Positions 9,833 through 64,000 of a DNA stretch of 64,000 nucleotides are shown piece after piece. The stretch is taken from positions 29,449 through 93,448 of the forward strand of contig NZ_QOLB01000137.1 in NCBI RefSeq assembly GCF_003333265.1. The letters are read 5' to 3'. The position numbers were made by a program, and so were the translations under genes. How positions within the stretch are numbered: the stretch's first letter is position 1; each line of letters starts with the position of its first letter. The DNA comes from Candidatus Halocynthiibacter alkanivorans. Its GTDB lineage: Bacteria > Pseudomonadota > Alphaproteobacteria > Rhodobacterales > Rhodobacteraceae. Under the pieces are notes generated by a model, which saw only the letters and a list, made by a program, of their open reading frames with translations, was not told the DNA's origin and searched no databases.

Positions 9833-9847
9833 CCGCAGTGCCAGACT

Positions 9848-48102: not shown

Positions 48103-48807
48103 ATGAACGAAATTCTTGAAGGTCTTAAGGCGGCCTCCTGGCTGGTGCTGACTTTTGATTCTGACCTGGTTGAGATTACCCTGCGCTCGCTTCAGGTGAC
48201 GCTGACCGCCGTCGCCATCGCTTCACTCATCGGACTGCCGCTTGGCGCCTGGCTGGCAGTGCACCGGTTTCGCCACCGCCGCGCCACCATCGCGCTGCTG
48301 AACGCGCTGATGGGGCTGCCACCGGTGGTGGTCGGGCTGGTGGTCTATCTGCTGCTGTCGCGCGCCGGCCCGTTTGGCGTGCTTGATCTGTTGTTCACTC
48401 CCACGGCCATGATCCTGGCACAGATTGTGATTGTCACCCCGCTGATTGCTTCGATCTCGCATCAGGCGATGCGCGATCTCTGGGCCAGCTATCATGATCT
48501 GCTGATCTCGATCAGCACCCGCAAACGCCAGCGCATCGCCACCCTGTTGTGGGACGGCAGGCGGGCGCTGATCACAGCGGCACTGGCCGGGTTTGGCCGC
48601 GCCATCGGCGAAGTCGGCGCCATTATGATTGTCGGTGGCAATATCGAACACGCTACGAGGGTTCTGACCACCGCCATTGCACTTGAAACCGGCAAGGGCA
48701 ACTTTGATTTGGCGCTGGGGCTTGGTTTTGTGCTGATCGCGCTGGCGATCCTGGTCAACGTGACAACTCATATGATCGGGCGCACGGAAAGTGAGGGCAA
48801 GTGGTGA
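48103..48807 (+). CDS. tupB: Tungstate ABC transporter permease
   Basis: The 234-residue permease has about five or six membrane helices and the ABC permease loop AALAGFGRAIGEVGAIMIVGGN near residues 163-184, which in this EVGAIMIVGGN form is typical of TupB/WtpB. It partners TupC and TupA to import tungstate. The gene starts the tupBCA operon; its stop overlaps the tupC start. Distinguishing tungstate from molybdate rests mainly on the TupA protein. Confidence 0.9.
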   Translation: MNEILEGLKAASWLVLTFDSDLVEITLRSLQVTLTAVAIASLIGLPLGAWLAVHRFRHRRATIALLNALMGLPPVVVGLVVYLLLSRAGPFGVLDLLFTPTAMILAQIVIVTPLIASISHQAMRDLWASYHDLLISISTRKRQRIATLLWDGRRALITAALAGFGRAIGEVGAIMIVGGNIEHATRVLTTAIALETGKGNFDLALGLGFVLIALAILVNVTTHMIGRTESEGKW

Positions 48808-49517
48808 CTTCCATTCTTCCTCTGACGCTCAGCGGTGCCACGGTGAAACGTGGCAAAAAGACCTTGTTGGGCCCTGTTGATATGACGGTGTCGCCCCGGG
48901 GCTTTACCATCATCCTCGGTCCCAACGGGGCGGGGAAAACCACCCTGTTGCGGGCGCTGCACGGGCTGGAACATCTTGATTCCGGCTCGGCGCGCTGGCA
49001 GGTGCCCCTGCGGGATGCGCGCAGCCGCCAGGGTTTTGTCTTTCAGGCGCCGGTGATGATGCGGCGCAATGTGCGGGACAGCCTCGCTTATCCGCTGATC
49101 GTGCATGGTGTGCGGCGCAAAGAGGCCCGCCAACGCGCCGGGCTCTGGGCGGAGAAAATCGGCCTGGGGGACATGCTGGATCAGGCCGCCAGCCAGCTTT
49201 CGGGCGGTGAAAAGCAAAAACTGGCGCTCGCCCGTGCGCTGATCCGCGACCCGGAGATCCTGTTTCTGGACGAGCCATGCGCCAATCTGGACGGGCGCGC
49301 CACCCGCGAAATCGAGGCCATTCTGCAAACCGCCCAGGCCAATGGCACCCGCATTCTGATGTCGACCCATGACATCGGCCAGGCCCGGCGCCTCGCCAGC
49401 GATGTTGTCTTTCTGATGGGCGGCAGGATCATCGAAACCGGCCCTGCAACCACTTTTTTTCACACCCCGTCCACGCCTCAGGCTGTTGCGCTTCTGAACG
49501 GAGATATCGTCGAATGA
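48804..49517 (+). CDS. tupC: Tungstate ABC transporter ATPase
   Basis: The 237-residue ATPase has Walker A GPNGAGKTT near residues 39-47, signature LSGGEKQKLALARAL near 131-145 and Walker B ILFLDEPCANLDGRA, followed by STHDIGQARRLASDVVFL with the switch His. The GTG at 48804 overlaps the tupB TGA (GTGA) with GAGGG seven bases upstream; the adjacent GTG at 48801 is an alternative. The stop overlaps the tupA start by four bases. Confidence 0.9.
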   Translation: MTSILPLTLSGATVKRGKKTLLGPVDMTVSPRGFTIILGPNGAGKTTLLRALHGLEHLDSGSARWQVPLRDARSRQGFVFQAPVMMRRNVRDSLAYPLIVHGVRRKEARQRAGLWAEKIGLGDMLDQAASQLSGGEKQKLALARALIRDPEILFLDEPCANLDGRATREIEAILQTAQANGTRILMSTHDIGQARRLASDVVFLMGGRIIETGPATTFFHTPSTPQAVALLNGDIVE

Positions 49518-50329
49518 TCCGCGTTTTTGCCTTGATTTCAACTCTGTGTTTAACTTTGTTTGCCTCTGTTGCTCAGGCCCAGACGCTGAAACTCGCCGTC
49601 ACCACCTCCTTTAACAATTCAGGTCTTTCGGACGTCCTGCTACCAGCGATCAAACAGGACACCGGAATAGAAGTACAACTTTTGATCGTGGGCACTGGCC
49701 AGGCGTTGCGCCTGGGCAAAGCCGGCGATGTGGACGCAATTCTGGTGCATTCGCGCGCCGCCGAAGAAGCTTTTGTGGCAGAGGGCTACGGCACTTACCG
49801 CCGCGAAATTATGTATAATGATTTTGTTCTGATCGGCCCGGCAGAGGACCCGGCAGGCATTTCCGGCGCACCGACCGCCACGCAGGCGCTACAGCGCATA
49901 TTTGGACAACAAGCAGTCTTTGTCAGCCGTGGCGACGACAGCGGCACTCATAAAATGGAACGCACGCTCTGGACCGCCGCCGGGCTTGAACCCGACACGT
50001 TTAAAGGCTGGTACCGTCCGGTTGGCGCTGGCATGGGCGCGGCGCTGAACACGGCTTCTGGTATGAACGCCTATCTGATGGCGGACCGCGCAAGTTGGCT
50101 TAACTTCGCCAACAAAGGCGATCTGGCGCTGCTCTATGCCGGCGACCCGGTGCTGTTCAACCAATATGCCTTTATCCCGGTTGATCCCGCCCGTTTCCCC
50201 CATGTTAAAAACAATCTGGTGCAAAAACTGGAGAGCTGGCTGACCTCAGAGCGCGCCGCCGGGCTTATCAACGGGTATCAGATCAACGGCGAGACCCTTT
50301 TTACTTTCAATGCAAATCCGGTACCCTGA
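49514..50329 (+). CDS. tupA: Tungstate-binding periplasmic protein
   Basis: The 271-residue protein has a Sec signal (cleavage after Ala22) and then LKLAVTTSFNNSGLSDVLLP. The TTS motif at 30-32 is the oxyanion-binding signature of TupA proteins (TTTS in characterised members; the first T is replaced by V). Further features are DAILVHSRAAEEAFV, SRGDDSGTHKMERTLW and GAALNTASGMNAYLMADRASW, all standard for TupA. It captures tungstate in the periplasm. A tungstate importer beside a formate dehydrogenase fits a tungsten-dependent enzyme. Confidence 0.92.
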   Translation: MIRVFALISTLCLTLFASVAQAQTLKLAVTTSFNNSGLSDVLLPAIKQDTGIEVQLLIVGTGQALRLGKAGDVDAILVHSRAAEEAFVAEGYGTYRREIMYNDFVLIGPAEDPAGISGAPTATQALQRIFGQQAVFVSRGDDSGTHKMERTLWTAAGLEPDTFKGWYRPVGAGMGAALNTASGMNAYLMADRASWLNFANKGDLALLYAGDPVLFNQYAFIPVDPARFPHVKNNLVQKLESWLTSERAAGLINGYQINGETLFTFNANPVP

Positions 50330-50509: not shown

Positions 50510-51022
50510 CTAATGTGTGTGCGGCGCGTCGTCCAGAGAGCCATGTACCGCAAACTGATCCAGCTCCGCCTGCTGCGGTGCGATATTGCGATAGGCTTCT
50601 TTCACCCCGGCATCCGTTAGCTCCCGGCTTACGGTCAGCAATGTGTTGTCGTCATGGCCGTCACAGAGCTCAGCCATCTGCGCCAGCTCGCTCTCTGCGA
50701 CCCCACGCGCTGCCTCAAGTGAAGGCGCGCCGTAATGGCTGACAAAATGCGCCGCCAGCATCTCCACGAGCTCAGCGGTCTCGGAGGCTTCAACCCTGGT
50801 GACCGCCACAAAGGTCACCCGGCCGAAAGTCTCGAGCCCGAGCCAGCCATTGGCAAACGCCTGACGTGCCTTGCCGTTCAGATCGCCCTCAGACCAGTCA
50901 GAAAATTCAAACCCGCCGGAAATACACCACTCGCCGGTGCGGGCAGGAGTGTGAAAGATGTTCATATCACTTTCGTCAAAATGAATTGCACGCGCCAGCA
51001 GCGGTCTGTTCTCCGCGCTCAT
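50510..51022 (-). CDS. Uncharacterised protein, DUF6505-like, in FDH accessory block
   Basis: The 170-residue acidic protein has no signal or membrane segment. Visible features are LLARAIHFDESDMNIFHTPARTGEW near the start, FVAVTRVEASETAELVEMLA in the middle, and a His-rich end (LDDAPHTH). I recall this family as DUF6505, found beside formate dehydrogenase accessory genes in Roseobacters, but cannot confirm it. The start overlaps the preceding ligase-like gene's stop by four bases. It is the last gene of a four-gene minus-strand run and may help formate dehydrogenase maturation. Confidence 0.7.
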   Translation of the reverse strand: MSAENRPLLARAIHFDESDMNIFHTPARTGEWCISGGFEFSDWSEGDLNGKARQAFANGWLGLETFGRVTFVAVTRVEASETAELVEMLAAHFVSHYGAPSLEAARGVAESELAQMAELCDGHDDNTLLTVSRELTDAGVKEAYRNIAPQQAELDQFAVHGSLDDAPHTH

Positions 51023-51744
51023 GGTGTCGCCTCCAGTTGGGAACTTAACGGGATCAGGTGGGTGGTGCCGTCCTGATCGCGCAACAACATGCCGAAACGA
51101 TCATCCACCCCCAGAAAAGTGCCGCTGAGCCCGCCCTGGTTCGCCTCTTCGCCGATGCCCGGCACCAGGCCACGCCATTCATTGTGCAGCGGGCCTGTGC
51201 CTTCACCGGACCAGCGGTTGATCCACACCAGCGTATGGCGCGCCCAGCTTTCCAACAGGGCTTTGGCGTCCACATCGGCGCAGCCCTCGGCATAAAGCGC
51301 GGTTTCGCCCGGAGTGTCGCCCGGACGGTCGGATGCCGGCCCGTCTGAAGCCGGCCACAGCGGAAGTTCCAGCCCAATCACCAGCCAGTCGGGCACTTGC
51401 GCCGGATCTGAAGTTGAGCTGATTGCCCGCAGGTGGCCACAGCTGGCGCCGTTGATTTTTATGCCACCAGCCCAGTCCAGATGCACCGCCACTTCCGGTG
51501 GGGCCAGCGCCCCGAGCGCGTTCTGAAAACCGATGCCACAGGCCGGCAGCATCGCCATGGCGTCCTCCAGCGGCACTTCCGGCGCAAAGATGATGGAGGC
51601 GCGCAACTCGGACGCGCCCAGATTATAGACCACCAGCCCGGCATCACAGCCCAGCGCCGCCTGGGCGATCGCCGCGTCAAGCGGGTCAGATTCGCCCGCG
51701 ACAGGGTAGCCGCTCAGCAGCGGCGGAAAACTCGCGTCCCTCAT
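51019..51744 (-). CDS. Biotin/lipoate-protein-ligase-like protein
   Basis: The 241-residue protein resembles the biotin/lipoate A/B ligase fold with a C-terminal DUF4444-like domain. DWAGGIKINGASCGHLR (near residues 89-105) corresponds to the ligase strand with the substrate Lys, and EWRGLVPGIGEEANQGGLSGTFLGVDDRFGML to the C-terminal SH3-like part. The usual ATP-binding GRGRxGR loop is not seen, so it may not be a true ligase. It overlaps both neighbours by four bases, showing tight coupling with the Mrp ATPase and the DUF6505-like gene. Confidence 0.72.
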   Translation of the reverse strand: MRDASFPPLLSGYPVAGESDPLDAAIAQAALGCDAGLVVYNLGASELRASIIFAPEVPLEDAMAMLPACGIGFQNALGALAPPEVAVHLDWAGGIKINGASCGHLRAISSTSDPAQVPDWLVIGLELPLWPASDGPASDRPGDTPGETALYAEGCADVDAKALLESWARHTLVWINRWSGEGTGPLHNEWRGLVPGIGEEANQGGLSGTFLGVDDRFGMLLRDQDGTTHLIPLSSQLEATP

Positions 51745-52808
51745 AACGTCCCCTCTGCCATCAACCTGCGTGCCAGATTGCGGAACCCCAGTGCCTGGGC
51801 GCTTTCAGGGTCAGACACCACAATCGGTGCGCCGCCATCCGCCGCCAGCCTTATGTCCAGATGCAGCGGAATTTCTGCCAGCAACGGTACGCCCAGTTTT
51901 TCCGCTTCCTGCGCCACGCCGCCATGGCCAAAGATATGCTCCTCATGGCCACAGGCGGAACAAATATGGGTGCTCATATTCTCCACCATGCCGAGGATCG
52001 GGGTGCCCAGCTGATTGAACATATCAATGCCCTTGCGCGCATCCATCAATGCCACATCCTGCGGTGTCGAGACGATAATCGCCCCGTCCAGTCTGGTCTT
52101 TTGCGCCAGCGTCATCTGCACGTCTCCGGTGCCCGGCGGCAGATCCACCAGCAACACATCCAGCGCGCCCCATTGCACCTGCATCAGCATCTGCTGCAAC
52201 GCGCCCATCAGCATCGGTCCGCGCCAGACCACCGCCTGGTCGTCATTGGTCATCAGCCCAATCGACATCATGGTGACACCGTGATTGCGCAGCGGCAGGA
52301 TAGTTTTTCCATCAGGCGAAGCCGGCCGGCCGGACACGCCAAGCATGCGCGGCTGCGACGGCCCGTAGACATCAGCGTCCAGCAATCCGACCCGCTTGCC
52401 CTCAGCGGCCAGCGCGCAGGCCAGATTGGCCGCCACGGTGGATTTGCCGACGCCGCCTTTGCCCGAGGCAATTGCGATGATGTGGTCAATGCCGGGGATT
52501 TTTTCCGGACCTGCCGGCTCGGCCTTGCGGTGTGGTTTCAAGTCCGGTGGCGCCGCCGGGCTGCTGTGGGCGGTCATCAGCGCCGAGACTTTGCCAATGC
52601 CGGGCAACGCTTTCAGATCCGCTTCCGCCCGTGCCCGCACCGGCTCCATCACCGGGGCTGACGCGGCTGTGACTTCAAACACAAAGCGCACATTGCCCTC
52701 GTCCACTGACAGCGCCCGCACCAGACCTGCGGCCATAATATCCTGCTCAGACTGCGGGTCTGCAATACGTTTGAGAACCGCCAGTACTTCGTCCCTCGTG
52801 ACCGCCAT
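51741..52808 (-). CDS. mrp: Mrp/ApbC-family Fe-S carrier ATPase
   Basis: The 355-residue protein has an N-terminal DUF59/MIP18-like domain (VLAVLKRIADPQSEQDIMAAG, residues 8-28), a P-loop SGKGGVGKST near residue 120 of the deviant-Walker type, VDLPPGTGDVQMTL, and the bridging Fe-S motif MSTHICSACGHEEHIFG with a CxxC. Mrp proteins load Fe-S clusters onto target enzymes. Its place in this block suggests dedicated service to formate dehydrogenase, though it could be the general cellular copy. The ATG at 52808 is one base after the DUF6494-like gene. Confidence 0.93.
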   Translation of the reverse strand: MAVTRDEVLAVLKRIADPQSEQDIMAAGLVRALSVDEGNVRFVFEVTAASAPVMEPVRARAEADLKALPGIGKVSALMTAHSSPAAPPDLKPHRKAEPAGPEKIPGIDHIIAIASGKGGVGKSTVAANLACALAAEGKRVGLLDADVYGPSQPRMLGVSGRPASPDGKTILPLRNHGVTMMSIGLMTNDDQAVVWRGPMLMGALQQMLMQVQWGALDVLLVDLPPGTGDVQMTLAQKTRLDGAIIVSTPQDVALMDARKGIDMFNQLGTPILGMVENMSTHICSACGHEEHIFGHGGVAQEAEKLGVPLLAEIPLHLDIRLAADGGAPIVVSDPESAQALGFRNLARRLMAEGTL

Positions 52809-52809
52809 C

Positions 52810-53004
52810 TCAGCTGTCCGCTCCGGTAATGGTGCCGGTGACCATATGTTCCAGCGCCAGCCCATCAATGGTCAGCACCACTTTCGCCTCATAGGTTTTT
52901 GTGCCGCTGCCACTCTTGCGCATAGCCTGCTCAATGGCCTGCTGCGAGGTGACACCGACTTGTTTCAGAAATTTGCGCATCGACATATTAAATTCATCGC
53001 TCAT
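52810..53004 (-). CDS. Small DUF6494-like protein
   Basis: This 64-residue acidic-amphipathic protein (MSDEFNMSMRKFLKQVGVTS, then a VLTIDGLALEHMVTGTI strand) fits what I recall of DUF6494, a small family that travels with formate dehydrogenase and Mrp genes. The ATG at 53004 is eight bases after AGGAG; the frame also has a GTG three codons earlier, too close to that site. It is the first gene of the four-gene minus-strand run. No catalytic motif is visible. Confidence 0.75.
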   Translation of the reverse strand: MSDEFNMSMRKFLKQVGVTSQQAIEQAMRKSGSGTKTYEAKVVLTIDGLALEHMVTGTITGADS

Positions 53005-53096: not shown

Positions 53097-53855
53097 ATGC
53101 GTATTTTGATCTGTGCATTTCTGGCTTGTTTCCTGATCCCGTCGGGCCTTGTCGCTCAGGAAAAAAGCTTCGTGCTGTCTGTGCCGCAAGCGCTTGAAAA
53201 CAGCGGATTTCTCGACTATCTGCTGCCCCGGTTTTCGCTGAAAACATCGGTCAGAATTCAGCGGGCCGCTCCAGGCGCTGCAGCAGATTTGCAGTTGAGC
53301 GCCAGCGGCAATGACAGCAACGGCGGGCCGGCAGTGTTTCAGGGCCCGCAGATACTCTGGCATATTGAACGTGTTTCGGACAGCCCTGCGGCCGCGCGCT
53401 TCCTGACCTGGCTCGCCTCTGACATCGGTCATCGGACCATCCTGGGCTATCAGCCTGATGGGGTGTCTCTGTTCACGCCGCCGACAGTTGAACGCGTCGC
53501 CACAGCGCCTGCAGGGGCGCCGGTGGACACCGCTGTCGGTGCAGGTCTGGCGCTGACCACCTGCGGCCGCTGCCATGTGGTGAATGAGAAAAACCGGATG
53601 AATTCCATCGGTTCGACCCCGTCTTTTGCTCTGCTCAGGACGTTTGACGACTGGGAAGAGCGGTTTCAGAGCTTCTATGCCCGTAAACCACATCCCGCCT
53701 ATACCCAGATCGAAGGCGTGACCGCGCCGTTTGATCCGGCACGCCCGCCGCCGATTGTGCCGCTCAGGCTGACGCCGGAGGAGCTCGACGCCATCACGGA
53801 TTACGTGGCAACCATCGCGCCGGCTGATCTTGGTGCTCCGTTGCAAGCTCAGTGA
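53097..53855 (+). CDS. Secreted hybrid: truncated TupA-like domain plus c-type cytochrome
   Basis: The 252-residue protein has a signal peptide (cleavage after LVA, residue 20). Residues 24-55 (FVLSVPQALENSGFLDYLLP) align with the start of mature TupA, and residues 98-128 (FLTWLASDIGHRTILGYQPD) align with the TupA C-terminus (LESWLTSERAAGLINGYQIN). The roughly 150-residue TupA middle is missing, and the TTS oxyanion motif is absent. Residues 150-245 carry a heme site CGRCH (156-160), a possible axial Met168 and a terminal cytochrome helix (TPEELDAITDYVATI). It is probably a periplasmic electron carrier linked to formate dehydrogenase. The stop overlaps the convergent ferredoxin gene by seven bases. 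Confidence 0.82.
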   Translation: MRILICAFLACFLIPSGLVAQEKSFVLSVPQALENSGFLDYLLPRFSLKTSVRIQRAAPGAAADLQLSASGNDSNGGPAVFQGPQILWHIERVSDSPAAARFLTWLASDIGHRTILGYQPDGVSLFTPPTVERVATAPAGAPVDTAVGAGLALTTCGRCHVVNEKNRMNSIGSTPSFALLRTFDDWEERFQSFYARKPHPAYTQIEGVTAPFDPARPPPIVPLRLTPEELDAITDYVATIAPADLGAPLQAQ

Positions 53856-55813
53856 TCCTTGCGCTTTGACAGGTAATCGTCAGTGGTGCGCACCCGCGGC
53901 CGTTCGCCACCTGCAAACGGGTTGTCCTGGGAATGATACTGGGCCTGAATGCGACAATTATCGCACATCTGGATCATCTTTGCAGTTTCCGGATTGGCGA
54001 ACATCGCGTGTTTTCCGGCCAGTTTTTCGGTGATCTTTTCCACCGTCGACTTCACCCCGAACAGGCTGCCGCATTCGATACATGCAAAGGGCTCCTCTTC
54101 ATGCAGCACCACCTGATTAAAGGCGGCGTCGCTCAGGTTTAAACGCGGTTCCAGCGTGATCGCCTTTTCCGGGCAGATATTGACGCAGAGCCCGCATTGC
54201 AGACAGGCGTCCTCCTGAAAGCGCAGCTGTGGTGCGTCCGGATTGTCGCCCAAAGCGCCGGAAGGGCACAGCGAGACACAGGACAGGCACAGGGTGCAGG
54301 CCGCGGTATCGACCAGCACAGCTCCATAAGGGGCGCTGTCGGGCAGGGCCAGGATAGCGTCTTTTGCCGCCAGCGCTTTGGCGGCGGTGCGGGTCACCTG
54401 ACGCCGGGTTCCCATCGGCAGGATTGGCGTGTCTACGGCGTCCGGGACCTCAGCGTCAAACAGGGCGTCCGACAGCGCATCCGGGTCTTCCAGCTCCAGC
54501 AGCCCGGTGGTGCGGGCACTGACCGCCTGCGCCAGCTCCGCCTCCCGCTGTAATGTATCGTGGTCTGATCCGGGGGAGACAAGCACATCAACAGCGGCAA
54601 ATCCAACCCCCAGCGTCGCCAAAATTTCCGCATGACCAAACGAAGCTAATGCGCTGATCTCAAACGGGATAACATCCGCCGGCAAACCGCGTCCCATGCG
54701 GGCGGACAGGGAAATCATCTCGCGCCCGTGGGTGTCATTATGCACCAGCAGGCGCGGCGCAGATCCTGCTTCTTTGCGATAAGTATCGGCCAGCACTCGC
54801 AGGCGCCGCAGCAGAGTCTCAACCGGCGGTGCGTCATAGCTGATCGCGCCCGACGGGCAGAGCGAGGAACAGGCGCCGCAGCCAGCACAGATCATCGGAT
54901 CGATGCTGACAAAATCGCCGGCCGTGGTAATGGCACCGGTCGGACAGGCGTCCAGGCAATTGGAACAGGCGGGCTGTCCGGCACGCGAATGGGCACAGAG
55001 CGCCGGCTCCAGCCGCACATACAGTGGCTTTTCGAAAGTGCCGGTCAGCTGTGAGGCTGCGAGTACCGCTTTGGCCACGGCGGCCGGGTGTTTCGGGTCG
55101 GCGCGCAGATAGCCTTCGCGTTTTTCCGGGGCTGGAAAAAGGGCAGGGGCGCCACTCAGGTCCAGGATGATATCGCATTGTGTGTGGGCGCCGTCGTTGG
55201 CGGGCCCAAACTCTGGCATTCCGCGGCCACCAGGCTCAATCTGCTGCAACCGGTCCAGTTGCAGTTCAAAGCCGCCAAGGGCGCCCTGCGCCTGTCGCAT
55301 TGCGCCGCGGATTACCTCAAAGGAGGCACCCACGGGCGGCGCGCTCATATCACTCAGCAGCACGGTGACACTTAAGATATCGCGCAGTTGTTCTGCGGCT
55401 TCCAGCGCCACTTCGCCGGGCCCGATGATCAGGCAGAGCCCTTCGGAGAGCACGTCCAGCGTCCGGACCCCGGTCAATTCGCCGCGCACCGGCAGGTTGG
55501 CCTCGGCAACAAGTGCGGCCATTTTGGGTAGTTTTGAAGCGCTGTCCGCGGACCAGCCCGCCCGGTCCCTCAGGTCGGTAAAACCTGCGATTTCGGCCTC
55601 CAGTTCACGTGCGAGTTCCTCGAAACGGGGGCGTTCCTGCTGGCAGGCAATCACGGTTTCCCCTGCGGCAATCAGGCGTGCAGCGCTGTCAATCTGAGTG
55701 GTGCACAGGCTGCTGTAGACGCGAGAGCACTGCATGTCTGTCGCCCGCTCCAACCCTTCGGCGTCCATCTGCTGGCTGCCCAAACAATCGCATAATATCA
55801 GTTTCTTAGACAT
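53849..55813 (-). CDS. Multi-cluster 4Fe-4S ferredoxin-like protein of the FDH locus
   Basis: The 654-residue soluble protein has two pairs of ferredoxin motifs: CSNCLDACPTGA and CAGCGACSSLCPSGA (about residues 280-320), and CTLCLSCVSLCPSGA and CLQCGLCVNICPEKA (about 505-550). CIECG near 577 and CDNCR near 616 are further ligand candidates. An N-terminal region with LILCDCLGSQQMDAEGLE also has cysteines. Similar proteins occur next to Roseobacter formate dehydrogenase genes; their exact role (electron transfer or maturation) is unknown. The ATG at 55813 fits the family start. It is divergent from the DUF3305 gene. Confidence 0.87.
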   Translation of the reverse strand: MSKKLILCDCLGSQQMDAEGLERATDMQCSRVYSSLCTTQIDSAARLIAAGETVIACQQERPRFEELARELEAEIAGFTDLRDRAGWSADSASKLPKMAALVAEANLPVRGELTGVRTLDVLSEGLCLIIGPGEVALEAAEQLRDILSVTVLLSDMSAPPVGASFEVIRGAMRQAQGALGGFELQLDRLQQIEPGGRGMPEFGPANDGAHTQCDIILDLSGAPALFPAPEKREGYLRADPKHPAAVAKAVLAASQLTGTFEKPLYVRLEPALCAHSRAGQPACSNCLDACPTGAITTAGDFVSIDPMICAGCGACSSLCPSGAISYDAPPVETLLRRLRVLADTYRKEAGSAPRLLVHNDTHGREMISLSARMGRGLPADVIPFEISALASFGHAEILATLGVGFAAVDVLVSPGSDHDTLQREAELAQAVSARTTGLLELEDPDALSDALFDAEVPDAVDTPILPMGTRRQVTRTAAKALAAKDAILALPDSAPYGAVLVDTAACTLCLSCVSLCPSGALGDNPDAPQLRFQEDACLQCGLCVNICPEKAITLEPRLNLSDAAFNQVVLHEEEPFACIECGSLFGVKSTVEKITEKLAGKHAMFANPETAKMIQMCDNCRIQAQYHSQDNPFAGGERPRVRTTDDYLSKRKDH

Positions 55814-56198
55814 GTATTCCTGCCCGCTATTGGTCAAAAATTGGCGACCGGTTTGTGCTGAATTCCTCCGAGTGTAGTCACGGAAAAGAGGGCGCGTAAA
55901 CAAAAAATCCGGTGCTTCTTGTGGGGGCAGGGCGACGCAAAGCGATTCGGATCAGGGTGGCAAGCACCGCCTGTGAAGCGCGTTTCAGGCGCATGGCGTG
56001 CCGCCCCAAGGGACAATTCGTCCCGGGTCGAACACCGTGGCCTGTCCACCGCCCCAAATTGTCCAGCTTCGCCGCAATTCGCTAAAATTCGTGCAAAATG
56101 GCTTTGTGATGCTGCGGGCCTGGGCCAGCGTTGCTTCCAGAGACTGCAACTCGGCTTTGGGAGGAGCTTTGATACATAATCCGCATCAGTATCAGACA
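55814..56198. other. 385-base divergent region between the ferredoxin and DUF3305 genes
   Basis: It holds the promoters for both arms of the FDH locus, but no clear -35/-10 pair is identifiable. A GGAGGAG near 56160 precedes an in-frame TTG at 56169 with only two bases spacing, so the DUF3305 start is slightly uncertain. GTGCAAAAT (56091-56099) is the reverse complement of ATTTTGCAC found at 47572-47580. Confidence 0.45.
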
Positions 56199-56741
56199 AT
56201 GCCGCTTGGTATTGTACTGCGCAAATCCCCGGGGGTAACCCGCTGGGCGCGCTGGACCTGGCAGGTCGTGGCCGTTTTGCCCGGTGCTGCCGAAGCCGAC
56301 TGGCACCTGTTGCGCCGCGATGGCGAGACCGCAGATTATCACATCTCCACCCCATTTCTGGAACTGCATGGTGCCGAAAGCGAAGCTTATCTCGCAGGAC
56401 TCTCTGACCGGATCCCGTCCATATTTACTGTGCTGCGCCAGACCGGGGATACACAAAAAGCCTGGGAGGTGCTTTTGGTGACCGCGTCGCCCTATGAGGC
56501 GCAGGATTACGCCGACAACGGCGAAGACCTGGTGGAAAAAATCCCGATGCCCGAGGGGCTGATCGCCTGGATCCGCGACTTTGCCCAAAAATACCACGAG
56601 CACGAGACCTTTGTGAAACGGCGCCGCGACCGCCAGCGGGTAGATACGGTTGAGGACGGTGTTGGGGATGCGCGTATCCCGCAGCTGACCGATGTCTACC
56701 GCGCCCCGCACAGGCCCGCCGGCAAAGAGGTGTTAAATTGA
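56199..56741 (+). CDS. DUF3305 protein of the FDH operon
   Basis: The 180-residue protein starts MPLGIVLRKSPGVTRWARWTWQVVAVLPGA, matching the DUF3305 family, which is found almost only beside formate dehydrogenase genes. No membrane segment or metal motif is seen; the end is basic (KRRRDRQRVDTVED). The ATG at 56199 fits the family opening although the ribosome site is poor. The stop overlaps the DUF3306 start by four bases. Likely a cytoplasmic assembly factor. Confidence 0.85.
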   Translation: MPLGIVLRKSPGVTRWARWTWQVVAVLPGAAEADWHLLRRDGETADYHISTPFLELHGAESEAYLAGLSDRIPSIFTVLRQTGDTQKAWEVLLVTASPYEAQDYADNGEDLVEKIPMPEGLIAWIRDFAQKYHEHETFVKRRRDRQRVDTVEDGVGDARIPQLTDVYRAPHRPAGKEVLN

Positions 56742-57454
56742 CCTCTGCAGCCCCGCCAGTCGATTTCTGGTCCCGGCGTAAAGCCCGGGTCGAGGCCGAA
56801 GCCCGCGCCGAAGTGCAAGCCGATCAGGCTGCGCTGGAGGCGTCAGAGCTGGCACTTCAGGAAGAAAAATCTGACGAAGAACTGTTGCTTGAACTGGAGC
56901 TGCCCGATCCCGATACGCTGCAGCCTGGCGACAACATTGCCGGGTTCATGGCCAAAGCCGTGCCCGAGCGCCTGCGCCGGCGCGCCTTGCGTCAGCTGTG
57001 GCGGCTCAATCCGGTATTGGCCAATGTGGACGGCCTGGTTGATTACGGTCAGGACTTTTCTGACAGTGCGCTGGCAGTGGAAAATTTGCAGACCGCCTAT
57101 CAGGTCGGAAAAGGCATGTTGAAACATGTGCAGGAAATGGCGCGCCAGGCGGAAGAAAAGGCCGCTGAACAAGCCAGGATGCAGATAGATACCGCCCCGG
57201 ACGCGCTTGCGCCGCTGCAGCCCGAACATTTCAAAGACATAACTGCTGACAGCGAAAAACCCTCTGAACCGACACCCTCTGCAGCTCCGGATCTGGCGGA
57301 TACGTCTGCTGATACCGATGCGGCGCCGGTATTGATTTCTCCATTGGCCGCGCCGGACACCTTTGCCGAGGCTCCTGTCGAGGAGCCGCCGCTGCCGCGC
57401 CGCCGCATGCAGTTTCATTTTACCCCCGATCCAACGCCGGAGATCCGAACATGA
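56738..57454 (+). CDS. DUF3306 protein of the FDH operon
   Basis: The 238-residue protein has the DUF3306 pattern: FWSRRKARVEAEAR near residue 10, then PDPDTLQPGDNIAGFMAKAVPERLRRRALRQLWR and NPVLANVDGLVDYGQDFSDS (about residues 56-110). The C-terminal half is disordered, rich in Ala, Pro and Glu. The TTG at 56738 is seven bases after AGAGG. It overlaps both neighbours by four bases. The family is restricted to FDH loci and is probably an assembly factor. Confidence 0.86.
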   Translation: MTSAAPPVDFWSRRKARVEAEARAEVQADQAALEASELALQEEKSDEELLLELELPDPDTLQPGDNIAGFMAKAVPERLRRRALRQLWRLNPVLANVDGLVDYGQDFSDSALAVENLQTAYQVGKGMLKHVQEMARQAEEKAAEQARMQIDTAPDALAPLQPEHFKDITADSEKPSEPTPSAAPDLADTSADTDAAPVLISPLAAPDTFAEAPVEEPPLPRRRMQFHFTPDPTPEIRT

Positions 57455-58158
57455 GCGCCACTGCAGACCCGACCGCAATTCAGACCGAAGGCCCGGCTTC
57501 TGATCAGACCTCTGTGCTCCCCGTGATCTCTGAAGACCGGTTGCGCGCCGATCTTTACAACTATCTTGGCCTGATGCTCTCGGGCCCGCCGGACCAGACA
57601 CTGCTGTTGCAGAGCGCCGCGTTGAGTGGGGACGCCAGCCCGTTGGGTCAGTCAATCTCAACCCTTGCGCGCGTGGCGAAGGTCTCAAAAGAAAAGGCGG
57701 TCATCAGCGAATTCAACGCTCTGTTTATTGGCCTGGGACGCGGCGAACTGCTGCCCTATGCCAGCTATTACCTGACCGGATTTCTCAACGAAAAACCGCT
57801 GGCCGCCTTGCGCGCCGATATGGCAGCACGCGGCGTGACCCGGGCCCCGAACGTGTTTGAACCCGAAGACAATATCGCCTCGCTGATGGAAATGATGGGC
57901 GGCATGATTGTCGGGCGTTTTGGCCGCAGCTCTGACCTGGAAAGCCAAAAAGTGTTTTTCAACAAACACATCGCACCCTGGGCGGCACATTTCTTTGCCG
58001 ATCTGGAAGCGGCGAAAAATTCTGTCCTCTACGCCTCTGTCGGTGCGGTGGGCAAAGCCTTTATCGACGTCGAACGCGAAGCGTTTCGCATGATCGCGGG
58101 CCCGGCCCGCACATTGGCGGCAACAGCCGCCACACACCAGAAGGGAGAAGTCAGATGA
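57451..58158 (+). CDS. TorD/DmsD-family redox-enzyme chaperone
   Basis: The 235-residue all-helical protein has the TorD-family signature EPEDNIASLMEMMGGMI (about residues 136-152), then SQKVFFNKHIAPWAAHFFADL. Such chaperones bind the twin-arginine leader or core of molybdo- or tungsto-enzymes until the cofactor is inserted. The target is almost certainly the FdhA product two genes downstream. Its start overlaps DUF3306, and its stop overlaps the TAT-leader gene, by four bases each. Confidence 0.9.
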   Translation: MSATADPTAIQTEGPASDQTSVLPVISEDRLRADLYNYLGLMLSGPPDQTLLLQSAALSGDASPLGQSISTLARVAKVSKEKAVISEFNALFIGLGRGELLPYASYYLTGFLNEKPLAALRADMAARGVTRAPNVFEPEDNIASLMEMMGGMIVGRFGRSSDLESQKVFFNKHIAPWAAHFFADLEAAKNSVLYASVGAVGKAFIDVEREAFRMIAGPARTLAATAATHQKGEVR

Positions 58159-58346: not shown

Positions 58347-58459
58347 GACAAAGACGACATTAACTGACTTCGGACGACTGGTTGCGTGAGGCCCGACTGT
58401 CCGGAGATTTTGAAACCCAGCAAGCCCGGCCCCGCCGGTGCCAGCAAGGGAGAATTGAT

Positions 58460-61354
58460 ATGCTCAGGAAAAAGACCAACGGGGTTGCGCGACGCTCCCA
58501 GCGGACAAGTATCCTTTCTGACGCCCGCGAGACAGCGGTGGACCGCCGTGCCTTTCTGCGCGGTTCCGGTCTGGCCATCGGCGGGCTGACTGCCATTGCC
58601 GCAACTGGCGGTACCGTCACCGCCGCCAATGCCCAGAGCGCCGCCCGCATGGCGGTTGAAACGGTGAAATCGGTCTGTACCCACTGTTCCGTTGGCTGCA
58701 CGGTGATTGCCGAGGTCGACAATGGTGTGTGGACCGGCCAGGAACCCGGCTGGGACAGCCCGTTTAACCTGGGTGCCCATTGTGCCAAAGGTGCTTCGGT
58801 GCGCGAACACGCCCATGGCGAACGGCGGCTGAAATATCCGATGAAACGCGAAGGCGGTGAATGGAAACGCATCAGCTGGGAAACCGCGATCAACGAGATC
58901 GGCGACGGCATGATGAAGATCCGCGAAGAAAGCGGCCCGGATTCAGTTTATTGGCTCGGTTCGGCCAAACACAGCAATGAACAGGCCTATCTGTTCCGCA
59001 AATTCGCCGCCTACTGGGGCACCAACAATGTCGACCACCAGGCGCGTATCTGTCATTCCACCACCGTGGCCGGCGTGGCCAATACATGGGGCTACGGCGC
59101 CATGACCAACAGTTATAACGACATCCACAATTCCCGCGCCATTTTCCTGATCGGCGGCAACCCGGCCGAAGCGCATCCGGTGTCTCTGCTACATATCCTC
59201 AAGGCCAAGGAGCAGAACAACGCACCGCTGATCGTTTGTGATCCGCGCTTTACCCGCACCGCTGCGCATGCCGATGAATATGTGCGCCTGCGTCCCGGCA
59301 CTGATGTGGCGCTGATCTGGGGCTTGCTGTGGCATATTTTTGAAAACGGCTGGGAAGACAAAGAGTTCATCCGCACCCGTGTCTGGGGCATGGATCAGAT
59401 CCGGGAAGAGGTGAAACGCTGGACCCCGGAAGAGACCGAACGTGTCACCGGCGTGCCTGGCTCGCAGCTGCGCCGAGTGGCGCGCACGCTCGCCAACAAT
59501 CGTCCCGCCACCGTGATCTGGTGTATGGGCGGCACCCAGCACACCACCGGCAACAACAACACCCGCGCCTATTGCGTGCTTCAGCTGGCGCTCGGCAATA
59601 TGGGCACCTCTGGTGGCGGTACCAACATTTTCCGCGGCCATGACAATGTGCAGGGCGCCACCGACCTTGGTGTGCTCAGCCATACGCTGCCGGGCTATTA
59701 CGGGCTGTCGGCCGGGGCCTGGGCCCATTGGGGCCGTGTCTGGGGCGAAGATCTGGACTGGCTCAAAGCCCAGTTTGATGTTCTCAAAGGCGCCGACGGC
59801 AAAGACAAGAAGCTGATGAACAGCACCGGCATTCCGGTCAGCCGCTGGATCGATGGCGTGCTGGAAGATGTTGAGAACATGGACCAGCCCAACAAGGTGC
59901 GCGCCATGGTGCTCTGGGGCCATGCGCCCAACTCGCAGACCCGCGGCAAAGAGATGAAAACCGCGATGGAGCAGCTCGACATGCTGGTGGTGGTGGATCC
60001 TTATCCCACTGTATCCGCCGTGCTGCATGACCGCGAAGACGGGGTCTATCTGCTGCCGGCCTGTACCCAGTTTGAAACCCGGGGCTCGGTCACCGCGTCA
60101 AACCGCTCGATCCAGTGGCGCGACAAGGTGGTGGATCCGCTGTTTGAAAGCCTGCCGGACCATGTGATCATGGCCAAATTCGCCAATAAATTCGGCTGGG
60201 GGGACCGGTTCTTCCGCAACATTGAGATGGAAGACGATGAGACGCCGAATGTGGAAAGCGTCACCCGCGAAATCAACGCCGGCATGTGGACCGTTGGGTA
60301 TACCGGCCAGTCGCCGGAACGCATCAAACTGCATATGGCCAATCAGCACACCTTTGACCGCACCACGTTGCAGGCGATCGGCGGACCGGCTGACGGCGAT
60401 TATTACGGCATGCCATGGCCCTGCTGGGGCACAGCCGAAATGGGCCATCCCGGCACGCCCAACCTTTATGACATGTCTAAACCGGTGTCTGAAGGCGGGC
60501 TGACTTTCCGCGCCCGCTTTGGCGTGGAACGCGACGGAGACAACCTGCTGGCCGAGGGCGTCTATTCTGCTGGCTCTGAAATTCAGGATGGCTACCCTGA
60601 GTTCACTATGCAGATGCTGATGGATCTGGGCTGGGACGGCGATCTGACCGCTGAAGAACGCGCCGCGATTGATGCGGTGGCGGGGCCAAAAACCAACTGG
60701 AAAACCGATCTTTCCGGTGGCATCCAGCGGGTGGCGATCAAACATGAATGTGCGCCATTTGGGAATGCCAAAGCCCGCGCTGTGGTCTGGACCTTCCCCG
60801 ATCCGGTGCCGGTCCACAGAGAGCCGCTCTATACCAACCGGCGCGATCTGGTGGAGGATTATCCCACCTATGAAGACCGCAAATTTTACCGGTTGCCCAC
60901 CATGTATGCCTCGATCCAGAAGAACGACTTTTCAAAGGATTATCCAATGATCCTGACCTCTGGTCGTCTGGTGGAATATGAGGGTGGGGGTGACGAAAGC
61001 CGCTCCAACCGCTGGCTCGCTGAATTGCAGCAGGACATGTTTGTGGAAATCAACACCAGAGACGCCAACAACCTGGGCATCCGCGATGGTGCACAGGTCT
61101 GGGTCGAGGGCGCTGAAGGCGCAAAGGTCAAAGTGATGGCCATGGTTACCCAGCGGGTCGGCGAAGGTGTCGCCTTTATGCCGTTCCACTTTGGCGGCCA
61201 TTTTGAAGGCGAGGACCGGCGGCACAAATACCCTGACGGCGCCGATCCCTATGTGCTGGGGGAATCCTCCAACACCGCGCAGACCTATGGCTATGATTCA
61301 GTGACACAGATGCAAGAGACCAAAGCCACTCTTTGCAAAATCTGGTCAGCATAA
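58460..61354 (+). CDS. fdhA: Formate dehydrogenase, catalytic alpha subunit (Cys type)
   Basis: The 964-residue periplasmic enzyme oxidises formate to CO2 at a bis-MGD Mo/W centre. It has a TAT leader (DRRAFLRGSGLAIGGL, Arg29-Arg30), a 4Fe-4S site (Cys73, Cys76, Cys80, Cys108) and the active site ARICHSTTVAG with Cys198-His199, so Cys replaces the selenocysteine of E. coli FdnG/FdoG. The bis-MGD regions (FLIGGNPAEAHP, IWCMGGTQHTTGNNN) and C-terminal dinucleotide-binding domain are complete. AAGGGAG lies seven bases before the ATG. It is a single uninterrupted frame. The neighbouring tungstate importer suggests W rather than Mo. Confidence 0.96.
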   Translation: MLRKKTNGVARRSQRTSILSDARETAVDRRAFLRGSGLAIGGLTAIAATGGTVTAANAQSAARMAVETVKSVCTHCSVGCTVIAEVDNGVWTGQEPGWDSPFNLGAHCAKGASVREHAHGERRLKYPMKREGGEWKRISWETAINEIGDGMMKIREESGPDSVYWLGSAKHSNEQAYLFRKFAAYWGTNNVDHQARICHSTTVAGVANTWGYGAMTNSYNDIHNSRAIFLIGGNPAEAHPVSLLHILKAKEQNNAPLIVCDPRFTRTAAHADEYVRLRPGTDVALIWGLLWHIFENGWEDKEFIRTRVWGMDQIREEVKRWTPEETERVTGVPGSQLRRVARTLANNRPATVIWCMGGTQHTTGNNNTRAYCVLQLALGNMGTSGGGTNIFRGHDNVQGATDLGVLSHTLPGYYGLSAGAWAHWGRVWGEDLDWLKAQFDVLKGADGKDKKLMNSTGIPVSRWIDGVLEDVENMDQPNKVRAMVLWGHAPNSQTRGKEMKTAMEQLDMLVVVDPYPTVSAVLHDREDGVYLLPACTQFETRGSVTASNRSIQWRDKVVDPLFESLPDHVIMAKFANKFGWGDRFFRNIEMEDDETPNVESVTREINAGMWTVGYTGQSPERIKLHMANQHTFDRTTLQAIGGPADGDYYGMPWPCWGTAEMGHPGTPNLYDMSKPVSEGGLTFRARFGVERDGDNLLAEGVYSAGSEIQDGYPEFTMQMLMDLGWDGDLTAEERAAIDAVAGPKTNWKTDLSGGIQRVAIKHECAPFGNAKARAVVWTFPDPVPVHREPLYTNRRDLVEDYPTYEDRKFYRLPTMYASIQKNDFSKDYPMILTSGRLVEYEGGGDESRSNRWLAELQQDMFVEINTRDANNLGIRDGAQVWVEGAEGAKVKVMAMVTQRVGEGVAFMPFHFGGHFEGEDRRHKYPDGADPYVLGESSNTAQTYGYDSVTQMQETKATLCKIWSA

Positions 61355-61367
61355 GGAGGTATGATTG

Positions 61368-61961
61368 ATGGCAAGATCTAAGTTTCTCGTCGATGCTGAA
61401 CGCTGCATTGAATGCAATGCCTGCGTGACAGCCTGTAAAAACGAGCACGAGGTGCCCTGGGGCATCAACCGGCGCAAAGTGGTGACCATCAATGATGGCT
61501 CACCCGGTGAGCGCTCAATCTCGGTGGCGTGCATGCATTGTTCTGACGCGCCCTGTATGGCGGTCTGCCCGGTGGATTGTTTCTATCAGACCGACGAAGG
61601 TGTGGTGCTGCATTCCAAGGACCTGTGCATCGGCTGCGGGTATTGCTTCTACGCCTGTCCCTTTGGCGCTCCGCAATATCCCCAGGCCGGCAACTTTGGC
61701 TCCCGCGGTAAGATGGACAAATGCACCTTCTGCGCCGGTGGTCCGGAGGAAAACAACTCCGCCGCCGAATTCGCCAAATATGGCCGCAACCGGATCGCAG
61801 AGGGCAAACTGCCAATCTGTGCCGAGATGTGCGCTACCAAAGCCCTGCTTGCAGGGGATGGCGATGTGGTCTCGGGCATTTACCGCGAACGGGTTGTGGC
61901 GCGCGGCTTTGGCTCCGGCGCCTGGGGCTGGGGCACGGCCTATAACCAGAAGGGCGGCTAA
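61368..61961 (+). CDS. fdhB: Formate dehydrogenase, Fe-S beta subunit
   Basis: The 197-residue electron-transfer subunit carries four 4Fe-4S motifs, starting with CIECNACVTAC (Cys13, 16, 19, 23), then CMHCSDAPCMAVCPVD, CIGCGYCFYACPFG and a CTFC ... CAEMCATKA pair. Unlike E. coli FdnH it lacks a C-terminal membrane helix and has no signal, so it is exported with FdhA and held by FdhC. An ideal AAGGAGGT site is seven bases before the ATG at 61368. Confidence 0.95.
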   Translation: MARSKFLVDAERCIECNACVTACKNEHEVPWGINRRKVVTINDGSPGERSISVACMHCSDAPCMAVCPVDCFYQTDEGVVLHSKDLCIGCGYCFYACPFGAPQYPQAGNFGSRGKMDKCTFCAGGPEENNSAAEFAKYGRNRIAEGKLPICAEMCATKALLAGDGDVVSGIYRERVVARGFGSGAWGWGTAYNQKGG

Positions 61962-62007
61962 GCCGGACCTTGTTGCAGGCCACATTTGGGGCCTCATGTA
62001 ACACAGC

Positions 62008-62039
62008 AAGGGGCGGTTCTGACGGGCCGCCCTTTGTTT
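62008..62039 (+). terminator. Possible terminator or attenuator between fdhB and fdhC
   Basis: AAGGGGCGG and CCGCCCTT form a stem (one bulged G), followed by TGTTTC. It lies 46 bases after the fdhB stop and could reduce read-through into fdhC. Confidence 0.45.
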
Positions 62040-62068
62040 CCGACACCTGAAGTCTGGTTCTGAGCCGT

Positions 62069-62169
62069 GGACGCTTCCGCGCAACGGACGCTTCCACGCA
62101 ACGGACGCCTCTGTGCAACGGATACCCCGGCGCATCGGTGTCCCTGTGCAACGGATGTCTCTGTCCCGT
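62069..62169 (+). repeat. Six-unit 17-bp tandem array between fdhB and fdhC
   Basis: Units start at 62069, 62086, 62103, 62120, 62137 and 62153 (spacings 17, 17, 17, 17 and 16). The first is GGACGCTTCCGCGCAAC, the second differs at one base, and later units drift progressively. It is not coding in any convincing frame and ends 55 bases before the fdhC start. The 263-base gap holds only this, the hairpin and the fdhC ribosome site (AGGAG). Confidence 0.9.
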
Positions 62170-62224
62170 GGGTCCCGTGTCCCTTGGAGCCGTCTTCTCC
62201 CTTACCTTTTCTAGGAGCCCGCCA

Positions 62225-63448
62225 ATGGCCCGCGCCCTTTTTGCATTCCTGTCCGGCGTTTTACTGAGCCTGCTGCTAAGCTTGGCGGCTGTGGCGCAGG
62301 AAACCGGCGTGCCTGACCGCAGCGCAACCGGCGGCGCCCAGACGCTGTCGGATATCATGTCCCGTCAGCGTGGCGCGCAGATTGACGACAGTTTCCGCAG
62401 CGGTGCCACCGGCAATCCGGACAATGCGGCCGGCCTGGTTAACCCGCTTGGTACGCTGGGTGGTGTCTCTGATCCCGAACTCTGGCGCGCGCTGCGCTAT
62501 GGCTCAGCTGATGTGACGGTCTCTGCCCGGGGGCCGGCCGCAGGCGTGGTGATCCAGAACGAGGGCATCTGGTGGCTGAACTTCCGCGAGGGGCCCCTGA
62601 TGCGGGGCGGTGCCTGGCTGCTGGGCGGCACGCTGCTGGCGCTCGTGCTGTTTTACCTGATCCGCGGCCGCATCCGCATTGACGGTGAAAAAACCGGCAA
62701 CACGGTGACCCGTTTCAAAGCGGTGGAGCGCTTTGCCCACTGGCTGATGGGCGGCTCTTTCATTGTGCTGGCGCTGACCGGGCTGATCACGCTCTTTGGC
62801 CGTACGGTGCTGATCCCAATGTTTGGCCGCGACAGTTTTGCGCTGCTGGCCGGCAGTTCCAAATGGATCCATAACAATATCTCCTGGGCCTTCATCATCG
62901 GCCTCATCCTGGTGTTTTTTATGTGGGTGCTGCACAACCTTCCCAAACGCCACGATCTGACCTGGCTGGCCCAGGGCGGCGGCATTCTGAAAAAAGGCGT
63001 GCACCCGCCGGCGGGCAAATTCAACGCTGGCCAGAAACTGATTTTCTGGACGGTCATTCTGCTTGGCGCCTCGGTGTCGCTGTCGGGCCTGTCGCTTCTG
63101 TTCCCCTTTGAAATGCCGCTGTTTGCCAAAACTTTCGCCGTTCTGAACAGTTCTGGCCTGCCGCAATTGTTTGGTATTGGCGATTTGCCGCTGGCGCAGA
63201 CGCCGCACCAGGAAATGCAGTATTCCCAGATCGCCCATGCTTTGGTAGCATTCGTCCTGATGGCGATCGTGCTGGCGCATATTTATATCGGCTCGGTCGG
63301 CATGGAGGGCGCAATTGATGCGATGAGCAGCGGCGAAGTCGAAGAGCAGTGGGCGCGCGAGCATCACTCTCTCTGGCTTGATGAAATTTCATCTGAAGAC
63401 CGCCCGTCTGATTCTGCCCCTTCAGCTTCTGAGCCGACGGTTGAGTGA
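62225..63448 (+). CDS. fdhC: Formate dehydrogenase, cytochrome b gamma subunit
   Basis: The 407-residue inner-membrane subunit passes electrons from FdhB to quinone. An N-terminal hydrophobic segment (residues 3-24) is probably a signal peptide or first helix. A periplasmic stretch of about 120 residues follows, then four core helices with heme-b ligand candidates in RFAHWLMGG, WIHNNISWAF and IAHALVAFVLMAIVLAHIY. The long N-terminal periplasmic part is larger than in E. coli FdnI (about 217 residues). The C-terminus is acidic and Ser/Pro-rich. AGGAG precedes the ATG. Confidence 0.93.
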   Translation: MARALFAFLSGVLLSLLLSLAAVAQETGVPDRSATGGAQTLSDIMSRQRGAQIDDSFRSGATGNPDNAAGLVNPLGTLGGVSDPELWRALRYGSADVTVSARGPAAGVVIQNEGIWWLNFREGPLMRGGAWLLGGTLLALVLFYLIRGRIRIDGEKTGNTVTRFKAVERFAHWLMGGSFIVLALTGLITLFGRTVLIPMFGRDSFALLAGSSKWIHNNISWAFIIGLILVFFMWVLHNLPKRHDLTWLAQGGGILKKGVHPPAGKFNAGQKLIFWTVILLGASVSLSGLSLLFPFEMPLFAKTFAVLNSSGLPQLFGIGDLPLAQTPHQEMQYSQIAHALVAFVLMAIVLAHIYIGSVGMEGAIDAMSSGEVEEQWAREHHSLWLDEISSEDRPSDSAPSASEPTVE

Positions 63449-63486: not shown

Positions 63487-63615
63487 ATGAAAACGATGTT
63501 GCTGGCCTTTGCCGCCATTGTGTTGATTACCATTACCGCAAATTTCGCGCTGCAAACGGCCGGCTTTTCGTCTCAGGAGCAAAACCTGGGTGCTGCCGTC
63601 AGGTTAGACCAATGA
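63487..63615 (+). CDS. 42-residue single-span small protein
   Basis: ATG at 63487 follows GGGGGA and encodes 42 residues with one hydrophobic span (MLLAFAAIVLITITANFALQ, residues 4-23) and a short polar tail. It is either a small membrane protein or a secreted peptide. It begins 38 bases after fdhC, and its stop overlaps the next gene's start (ATGA), so it is likely translated and coupled. I do not recognise a family. Confidence 0.6.
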   Translation: MKTMLLAFAAIVLITITANFALQTAGFSSQEQNLGAAVRLDQ

Positions 63616-64000
63616 ACCGGCACAGCCCGGCCGCCCGGATCCCCGCAACCCGGAGCCCTGTCTCTCAAGACGCTGATACCTATGGTGAAAGCCTGTTCCG
63701 CGCCTCGATCCTGATTGTAGATGACGAACCCGGGATGCGGAATTTCCTGCATAAAATTCTCGCGCCGCGCTGCAAGCGGGTGGAGCAGGCCGACAGTGCA
63801 ACGGCGGCGGCCAAACTGCTGGACGGCAATCATTTTGACCTGGTGATCCTCGACAATATCATGCCAGGTAAAACCGGGCTCGACTGGCTGCGCGAACAAC
63901 ACCGGGTCGGATTTTTTGCCGATGCGATCCTGATCACCGCCTATGCGGACCTGGAAACCGCGATCACCGCGCTGCGCGCCGGGGTTGCGGATTTTGTGTT
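63612..64000 (+). CDS. Response regulator, receiver domain (3' end outside window)
   Basis: The first 129 residues are visible. After a 30-residue lead they form a CheY-like receiver (ASILIVDDEPGMRNFL): acidic pair Asp37-Asp38, phosphoacceptor Asp81 in LVILDNIMPGKTG and Thr109 in ILITAYADLETAI. The YADLETAI segment and length of the lead are compatible with an NtrC-like sigma-54 activator, but the output domain is not in the window. The ATG overlaps the small peptide's stop (ATGA). Position after fdhC suggests control of the FDH locus. Confidence 0.9.
   Translation, partial: MNRHSPAARIPATRSPVSQDADTYGESLFRASILIVDDEPGMRNFLHKILAPRCKRVEQADSATAAAKLLDGNHFDLVILDNIMPGKTGLDWLREQHRVGFFADAILITAYADLETAITALRAGVADFV

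Follow-up and report, generated by a model that had tools for sequence, protein, structure and literature searches.

As read from its sequence, the product of one gene in the window (the whole stretch of 64,000 nucleotides that was analysed) is a two-part protein in which a TupA-like lobe and a c-type cytochrome domain are joined in a single chain. The gene is accompanied by formate dehydrogenase (FDH) genes, and we tentatively propose that this hybrid may act as an accessory electron carrier of the neighbouring FDH, a role to which we would give somewhat less than an even chance. The hybrid is predicted to be secreted, and its 252 residues comprise a hydrophobic leader, about 110 residues with no Pfam match and a Cytochrom_C part, in that order. 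The open reading frame, its coordinates and strand and the CGRCH motif are all as a first-pass annotation of the window had given them. The features of the hybrid are as follows.

53097..53855, + strand: hybrid protein, 252 aa (leader, TupA-like lobe and c-type cytochrome domain)
53097..53156, + strand: predicted Sec-type signal peptide, residues 1-20 (recognised by eye; helix at residues 2-13 in the structure model)
53160..53489, + strand: TupA lobe-A-like domain, residues 22-131
53226..53243, + strand: PRFSLK signature, residues 44-49 (R45 and F46 invariant in 87/87 hybrids)
53538..53816, + strand: cytochrome c domain (PF00034), residues 148-240, by Pfam match
53562..53576, + strand: CGRCH heme-binding motif, residues 156-160 (C156, C159 and H160 in 99/99 sequences)
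53691..53693, + strand: H199, candidate distal heme ligand (present in 99/99 sequences; ligation putative)

The hybrid is present in a single copy in its own genome (E up to 0.001). A protein search at E up to 0.001 returned 1854 homologues, and one CXXCH motif is found in each of the best 120 of the 1854. Proteins of Roseobacter denitrificans and Roseobacter litoralis, judging by their names, belong to these homologues. The number of homologues and the motif in each of these 120 indicate that the hybrid represents a family and not a lone damaged gene.

Several comparisons connected the region between leader and cytochrome domain with TupA. In BLASTP against the TupA encoded at 49514-50329, residues 19-72 of the hybrid were matched at E 6e-7 and residues 101-127 at E 0.001. 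The NCBIfam TupA model NF041772 matched residues 12-69 at E 0.0012; the 18.3 bits of the hybrid lie below the 400-bit cut-off of this model, which does not discriminate here, as the complete TupA of the window falls below it as well with 183.5 bits. A profile of 43 TupAs matched 81 of the 87 hybrids at E below 1e-3 and none of the same 87 sequences when they were reversed (0/87) or shuffled (0/87). Profile-profile comparison of TupA with the hybrid gave an E of 5.9e-13 over 122 columns and was collinear at both ends. When a 33-row profile of the hybrid family was searched against PDB sequences, the four best matches were 3muq, 3lr1, 5my5 and 3cvg, two of them reached by the N-terminal stretch and two by the C-terminal one. 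In L155, a fuller hybrid, the match extends over positions 12-102 and 233-267 of the TupA profile. The TupA-like match that the first-pass annotation had claimed for the two stretches is therefore above chance by BLASTP, profile and profile-profile comparison and by the reversed and shuffled controls, and the profile search that it had called for returned a significant match of the N-terminal region to TupA-like proteins.

Structure prediction, which had likewise been proposed, gave a confident half-PBP model. The best structural match of the lobe was TupA. This statement on the fold comes from VIA-align 2, applied as a second look to Foldseek's own list. Its rows covered residues 22-134, and the lack of a cytochrome among the 50 shown carries no information on that domain. 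Residues 22-131 are predicted by modelling to form a complete single TupA lobe, in place of the outer edges to which the earlier picture had reduced the binding protein. It could be argued that the resemblance to TupA reflects chance or an effect of the common leader peptide, as the single pairwise scores are modest, Pfam holds no family for residues 20-130, and Foldseek against the PDB alone gave no E at or below 0.001 and placed many maltose-binding-protein fusions among its top rows. We regard this as extremely improbable in view of a match that is collinear at both ends, of reversed and shuffled controls with zero matches, of TupA itself as the best structural match and of the more complete agreement of L155 with the TupA profile.

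Compared to TupA (NF041772; 5my5, 3lr1 and 3muq), the hybrid shares the collinear sequence and the predicted fold of lobe A; it lacks the second lobe, the TTS motif and the opposite ligand residues, and a heme domain has been added. Positions 92-204 of the TupA precursor have no counterpart in the hybrid by profile-profile comparison. The loss of the middle, as originally described, was thereby borne out, and its size was corrected from about 150 to about 113 TupA residues. The disappearance of the TTS oxyanion motif was likewise confirmed, the motif being found in 0/87 hybrids and in 43/43 TupAs. According to part of the published account of D. alaskensis TupA, residues 1-81, 82-188 and 189-236 were used as separate search pieces, and the TTTS motif lies in lobe A with R118, T124 and D170 opposite (PMC5517513). 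The gap in the hybrid corresponds approximately to the middle one of these pieces (82-188), so that the opposite ligand residues R118, T124 and D170 are absent from the hybrid.

A new signature was found in the retained lobe. The sequence P-R-F-x-L-K lies on the helix that follows the TTS position, with R45 and F46 present in 87/87 hybrids and K49 in 86/87; the corresponding columns are variable in TupA, so this is not a TupA feature. Collectively, the lobe fold, the loss of TTS and the gain of R45, F46 and K49 suggest a surface under new constraint, and the near-invariance of PRFxLK suggests that this surface may have been re-used for docking to a protein.

The second part of the hybrid, residues 148-240, matches Cytochrom_C with 22.9 bits against a gathering cut-off of 21.3. 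When 87 hybrids were compared together with 12 stand-alone cytochromes, C156, C159, H160, P198 and H199 proved invariant in 99/99. A distal methionine ligand is usual in c-type cytochromes of PF00034. No methionine column is conserved in the 99 sequences; the best is M168, which is present in 63/99 and lies 8 residues after H160. Bis-histidine ligation of the heme by H160 and H199 is probably the simplest reading of these columns, and a five-coordinate heme is a possible alternative. The cytochrome domain modelled alone with AlphaFold gave a poor model (mean pLDDT 67). The cytochrome parts of two hybrids, L006 and L168, are identical.

The hybrid gene is located between genes for tungstate transport, maturation-type functions and FDH, as listed below.

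48103..50329, + strand: tupB, tupC and tupA, a complete tungstate transporter (TupC and TupA by profile matches)
within 48103..50329, + strand: TupB, assigned from its position together with matches at other loci, no Pfam family having been found
50510..53004, - strand: divergent block of DUF6494, Mrp-type ATPase, biotin/lipoate-ligase-like protein with DUF4444, and DUF6505
53849..55903, - strand: polyferredoxin, 684 aa, four 4Fe-4S motifs; its gene and that of the hybrid are arranged tail-to-tail
55998..58158, + strand: DUF3305, DUF3306 and TorD-type chaperone genes
58382..63448, + strand: fdhA, fdhB and fdhC, the formate dehydrogenase subunits

Conservation of the hybrid beside fdh genes, anticipated in the first-pass annotation, was found in all 66 loci examined (60 from the 105 strong-match genomes described below and 6 others): polyferredoxin, DUF3305, DUF3306, TorD and FdhA accompany the hybrid in 66/66. 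In the same loci, Mrp was present in 63, the ligase-like protein in 65, DUF6505 in 65 and TupA in 24 (DUF6494 was uncounted). A set of 87 loci was formed by adding to these 66 the window, L124, L125 and 18 further loci; within 11 kb of the hybrid, polyferredoxin occurs in 84, FdhA in 82 and TupA in 32. Three hybrid loci have no polyferredoxin: the stretches of L153 and L154 are cut off by the end of a contig, which leaves L125 as the one genuine exception. The FDH beside the hybrid is predicted to be periplasmic. The block at 50510-53004 (-), with DUF6494, Mrp, the ligase-like protein and DUF6505, accompanies the FDH cluster and may be a maturation set of some kind.

The occurrence of the hybrid was surveyed in 295 sampled genomes of the bacterial family to which the window belongs, its own genome included, with the polyferredoxin at 53849-55903 (-) serving as marker of the FDH cluster. 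A hybrid match at E up to 0.001 was found in 119/295 genomes. A strong match (E below 1e-30) was found in 105, although in two of these, G004 and G054, it is confined to the cytochrome; 14 genomes with weak matches only were set aside. FDH-cluster polyferredoxin (scored at E up to 1e-60) is present in 103/105 strong-match genomes, and TupA (scored at E up to 1e-30) likewise in 103/105. TupA was found in 134/137 genomes with polyferredoxin and in 60/158 without it, suggesting that the FDH of these clusters is usually tungsten-dependent.

The hybrid is missing from a number of otherwise intact clusters. A strong hybrid match is lacking in 34 of the 137 polyferredoxin genomes, and the FDH is evidently not dependent on the hybrid. 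From these 34 genomes, 20 loci were inspected; in 17/20, no more than 306 bases separate polyferredoxin from the adjoining Mrp, which leaves no room for a hybrid gene, and in L148, L149 and L150 there is no Mrp beside polyferredoxin. Within 6 kb of these 17 clean absences, other CXXCH reading frames occur only in L136 and L137, where they are antisense to polyferredoxin or fdhB. In a FastTree polyferredoxin tree (84 loci with the hybrid and 20 without), its presence changes at least 17 times; this count cannot separate gain from loss, and the pattern is most simply explained by one gain and many losses. These clean absences from intact clusters indicate that the hybrid is an accessory. The idea of an obligatory FDH subunit was rejected on the basis of the 34/137 genomes, the 17/20 loci and the minimum of 17 presence changes.

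Correlates of presence were sought as well. Among residues of the FDH cluster, the best association with the hybrid had p 7e-5 in 10,355 tests, which is chance level; three FdhB columns among the ten best correlates give a weak hint only. Comparison of the 34 hybrid-negative genomes with 46 hybrid-positive ones (part of the 103 with both hybrid and polyferredoxin) revealed no link with the cbb3 oxidase (CcoO above cut-off in 31/34 negative and 44/46 positive genomes) or with NapA (6/34 and 11/46).

These occurrence data also bear on the suggestion that the hybrid is a sensor of redox or metal status, in which a half-TupA would touch the TupB permease or the FDH and report or gate according to the state of its heme. 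The lobe derives from a protein that docks to TupB, TupA occurs in 103/105 strong-match genomes, and an open heme site is possible because no methionine ligand is conserved. However, TupA is equally common among the polyferredoxin genomes (134/137), so that finding it alongside the hybrid is uninformative; only 32/87 hybrid loci have TupA within 11 kb, and the R45/F46/K49 signature is no feature of TupA. We consider such a sensor unlikely. Likewise unlikely, in our judgement, is a redox regulator in which an oxyanion-binding protein cut down to one lobe would serve as a docking head: its heme-bearing half-TupA would sit on the TupB permease or the FDH and, depending on the electron status of the periplasm, gate the supply of tungsten or the activity of the enzyme.

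The origin of the fusion was approached by a class-wide search of 385 genomes, from which 15 loci were fetched. By BLASTP, 10 of these encode a stand-alone cytochrome, 2 a hybrid (L124 and L125) and 3 neither. Seven of the 10 stand-alone loci contain FDH polyferredoxin or FdhA, with TupA also present in 5 of the 7, so the redox part is linked to FDH even without the lobe. In L122, a bare cytochrome lies between Mrp and polyferredoxin, just where the hybrid stands elsewhere. The stretches of L120, L121 and L127 contain stand-alone cytochromes without polyferredoxin, FdhA or TupA. The stand-alone cytochromes of FDH clusters in other Alphaproteobacteria (such as L116, L117, L119 and L122) share with the hybrid the cytochrome domain, the invariant H160 and H199 and often the gene cluster; unlike the hybrid, they have no TupA lobe. 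A quick cytochrome tree, built on 113 columns for 99 rows and with many forks open, placed 9/10 of the class-wide stand-alone cytochromes outside the hybrids; L122, L151 and L152 fell inside the hybrids, on unstarred branches. The latter two, at 9710-10141 (-) and 5310-5723 (-) of their stretches, are the stand-alone cytochromes of G004 and G054, and their stretches contain none of the sixteen cluster genes searched for.

A lobe tree (114 columns, some long branches, TupAs only from FDH-linked stretches, bootstrap not settled) placed 30 sampled hybrids of the 87 on one side of a branch and all 43 sampled TupAs apart (100/99), with the fuller hybrids L004, L085 and L155 nearest TupA. The likeness to the TupA encoded 3 kb away, on which the first-pass annotation had drawn, is not a special one in this tree. 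A recent local duplication of the neighbouring tupA is unsupported, the tree splitting the 30 hybrids from the 43 TupAs; an old origin from the TupA ancestor of the cluster could still be accommodated. The data would fit a single old fusion of lobe to cytochrome followed by a few later losses. One old fusion, and not a recent tupA copy, also agrees with the situation in other Alphaproteobacteria, where the cytochrome is encoded on its own and is often found near TupA in a cluster of this type.

The stand-alone relatives raise the further possibility that the hybrid carries electrons for another periplasmic enzyme, its linkage to FDH being merely historical. Relatives outside FDH clusters occur in 3/10 loci of other families and in G004 and G054. 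Such a role is hard to reconcile with FDH-cluster polyferredoxin in 103/105 strong-match genomes, and we find it improbable.

For an accessory electron carrier of the FDH, the following sequence of events can be envisaged. A cytochrome already associated with FDH would have acquired, by fusion, a lobe derived from TupA; with the second lobe and the ligand residues gone, ligand trapping would have ended; and the altered lobe would have become a docking module onto the FDH system. Through electron exchange, the heme could then connect the FDH side with further redox partners in the periplasm. This route would be a branch beside the quinone route that we take FdhC to provide in this FDH type, and would not replace FdhC. 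A carrier is preferred because of the synteny with FDH genes in 66/66 loci and the co-occurrence in 103/105 genomes, and because the cytochrome that takes up electrons from XoxF, XoxG, is joined in some Methylacidiphilum to the PBP-like XoxJ. The newly constrained surface of the lobe and the FDH linkage of the bare cytochrome in 7/10 stand-alone loci also speak for it. Against it, the maturation-type genes around the hybrid gene would suit a helper equally, FDH does without the hybrid in 34/137 genomes, no FDH residue (beyond chance), CcoO or NapA tracks its presence, and the cytochrome domain taken alone models poorly.

By analogy, the XoxG/J fusion of methanol dehydrogenase appears to be the closest relative in design, the likeness being one of architecture and not of sequence comparison; the neighbour of the hybrid is FDH and not XoxF, and the hybrid keeps one lobe, which is TupA-derived. 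XoxJ keeps both lobes. As far as the part of the literature consulted describes it, XoxG accepts the electrons of XoxF, XoxJ is a periplasmic binding protein proposed as XoxF activator, and XoxG and XoxJ form one fusion (cytochrome cGJ) in Methylacidiphilum SolV and Kam1. There, as in the hybrid, a single chain combines a c-type cytochrome with a PBP-like part and is linked to a one-carbon dehydrogenase of the periplasm (PMC8170126). According to part of another report, M. extorquens lacking xoxG or xoxJ is equivalent, in the presence of lanthanum, to M. extorquens lacking both XoxF (PMC7391723).

Because of this precedent, the main rival to an electron carrier is a periplasmic, XoxJ-like maturation or activation factor of FDH, whose lobe would hold the assembling subunit or site and whose heme would supply or remove electrons in the course of activation. 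The proposed activation of XoxF by the PBP-like XoxJ (PMC8170126, as seen in part) and the position of the hybrid gene between the Mrp/DUF block and the DUF3305/DUF3306/TorD-type chaperone block speak for it; however, the hybrid is lost with roughly the ease of an accessory, with about 17 presence changes, and the chaperone genes stay in the losing loci. We rate this role as somewhat unlikely.

PBP-cytochrome fusions beside a dehydrogenase are thus of a known kind, and the single remaining lobe is unusual. A literature search over titles and abstract openings, with most subscription journals outside its coverage, returned no account of a TupA-lobe/cytochrome hybrid. Published fdhGHI clusters resemble the present one in having DUF3305, DUF3306, TorD/DmsD and ferredoxin genes with FDH (PMC4464133, in part); the cluster description names no cytochrome c ('cytochrome c' occurs 0 times in its main text) and no TupA-like member (PMC4464133). 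FDH clusters of this type contain several helper genes without assigned function, and the anatomy of one helper can now be read. These results indicate that a binding protein of two lobes can persist as a fused module after one lobe and the ligand site have gone, fuller versions such as L155 surviving. If the hybrid is indeed a carrier, half a binding protein serving as accessory electron carrier would be a new use. The XoxG/J parallel suggests, by analogy, that one-carbon dehydrogenases may on more than one occasion have recruited a binding-protein scaffold as partner. R45, F46, K49 and H199 are offered as residues for testing.

Other features of the window were noted in passing. A second molybdopterin oxidoreductase of 682 aa is encoded at 45411-47459 (-), divergent from tupBCA. 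As called, fdhC (62138-63448, +) has about 190 residues before its cytochrome b561 domain, a possible extra periplasmic segment. At 63612-63998 (+), where the end of the contig coincides with the end of the window, a truncated reading frame resembles by eye a response-regulator receiver and may regulate the cluster.
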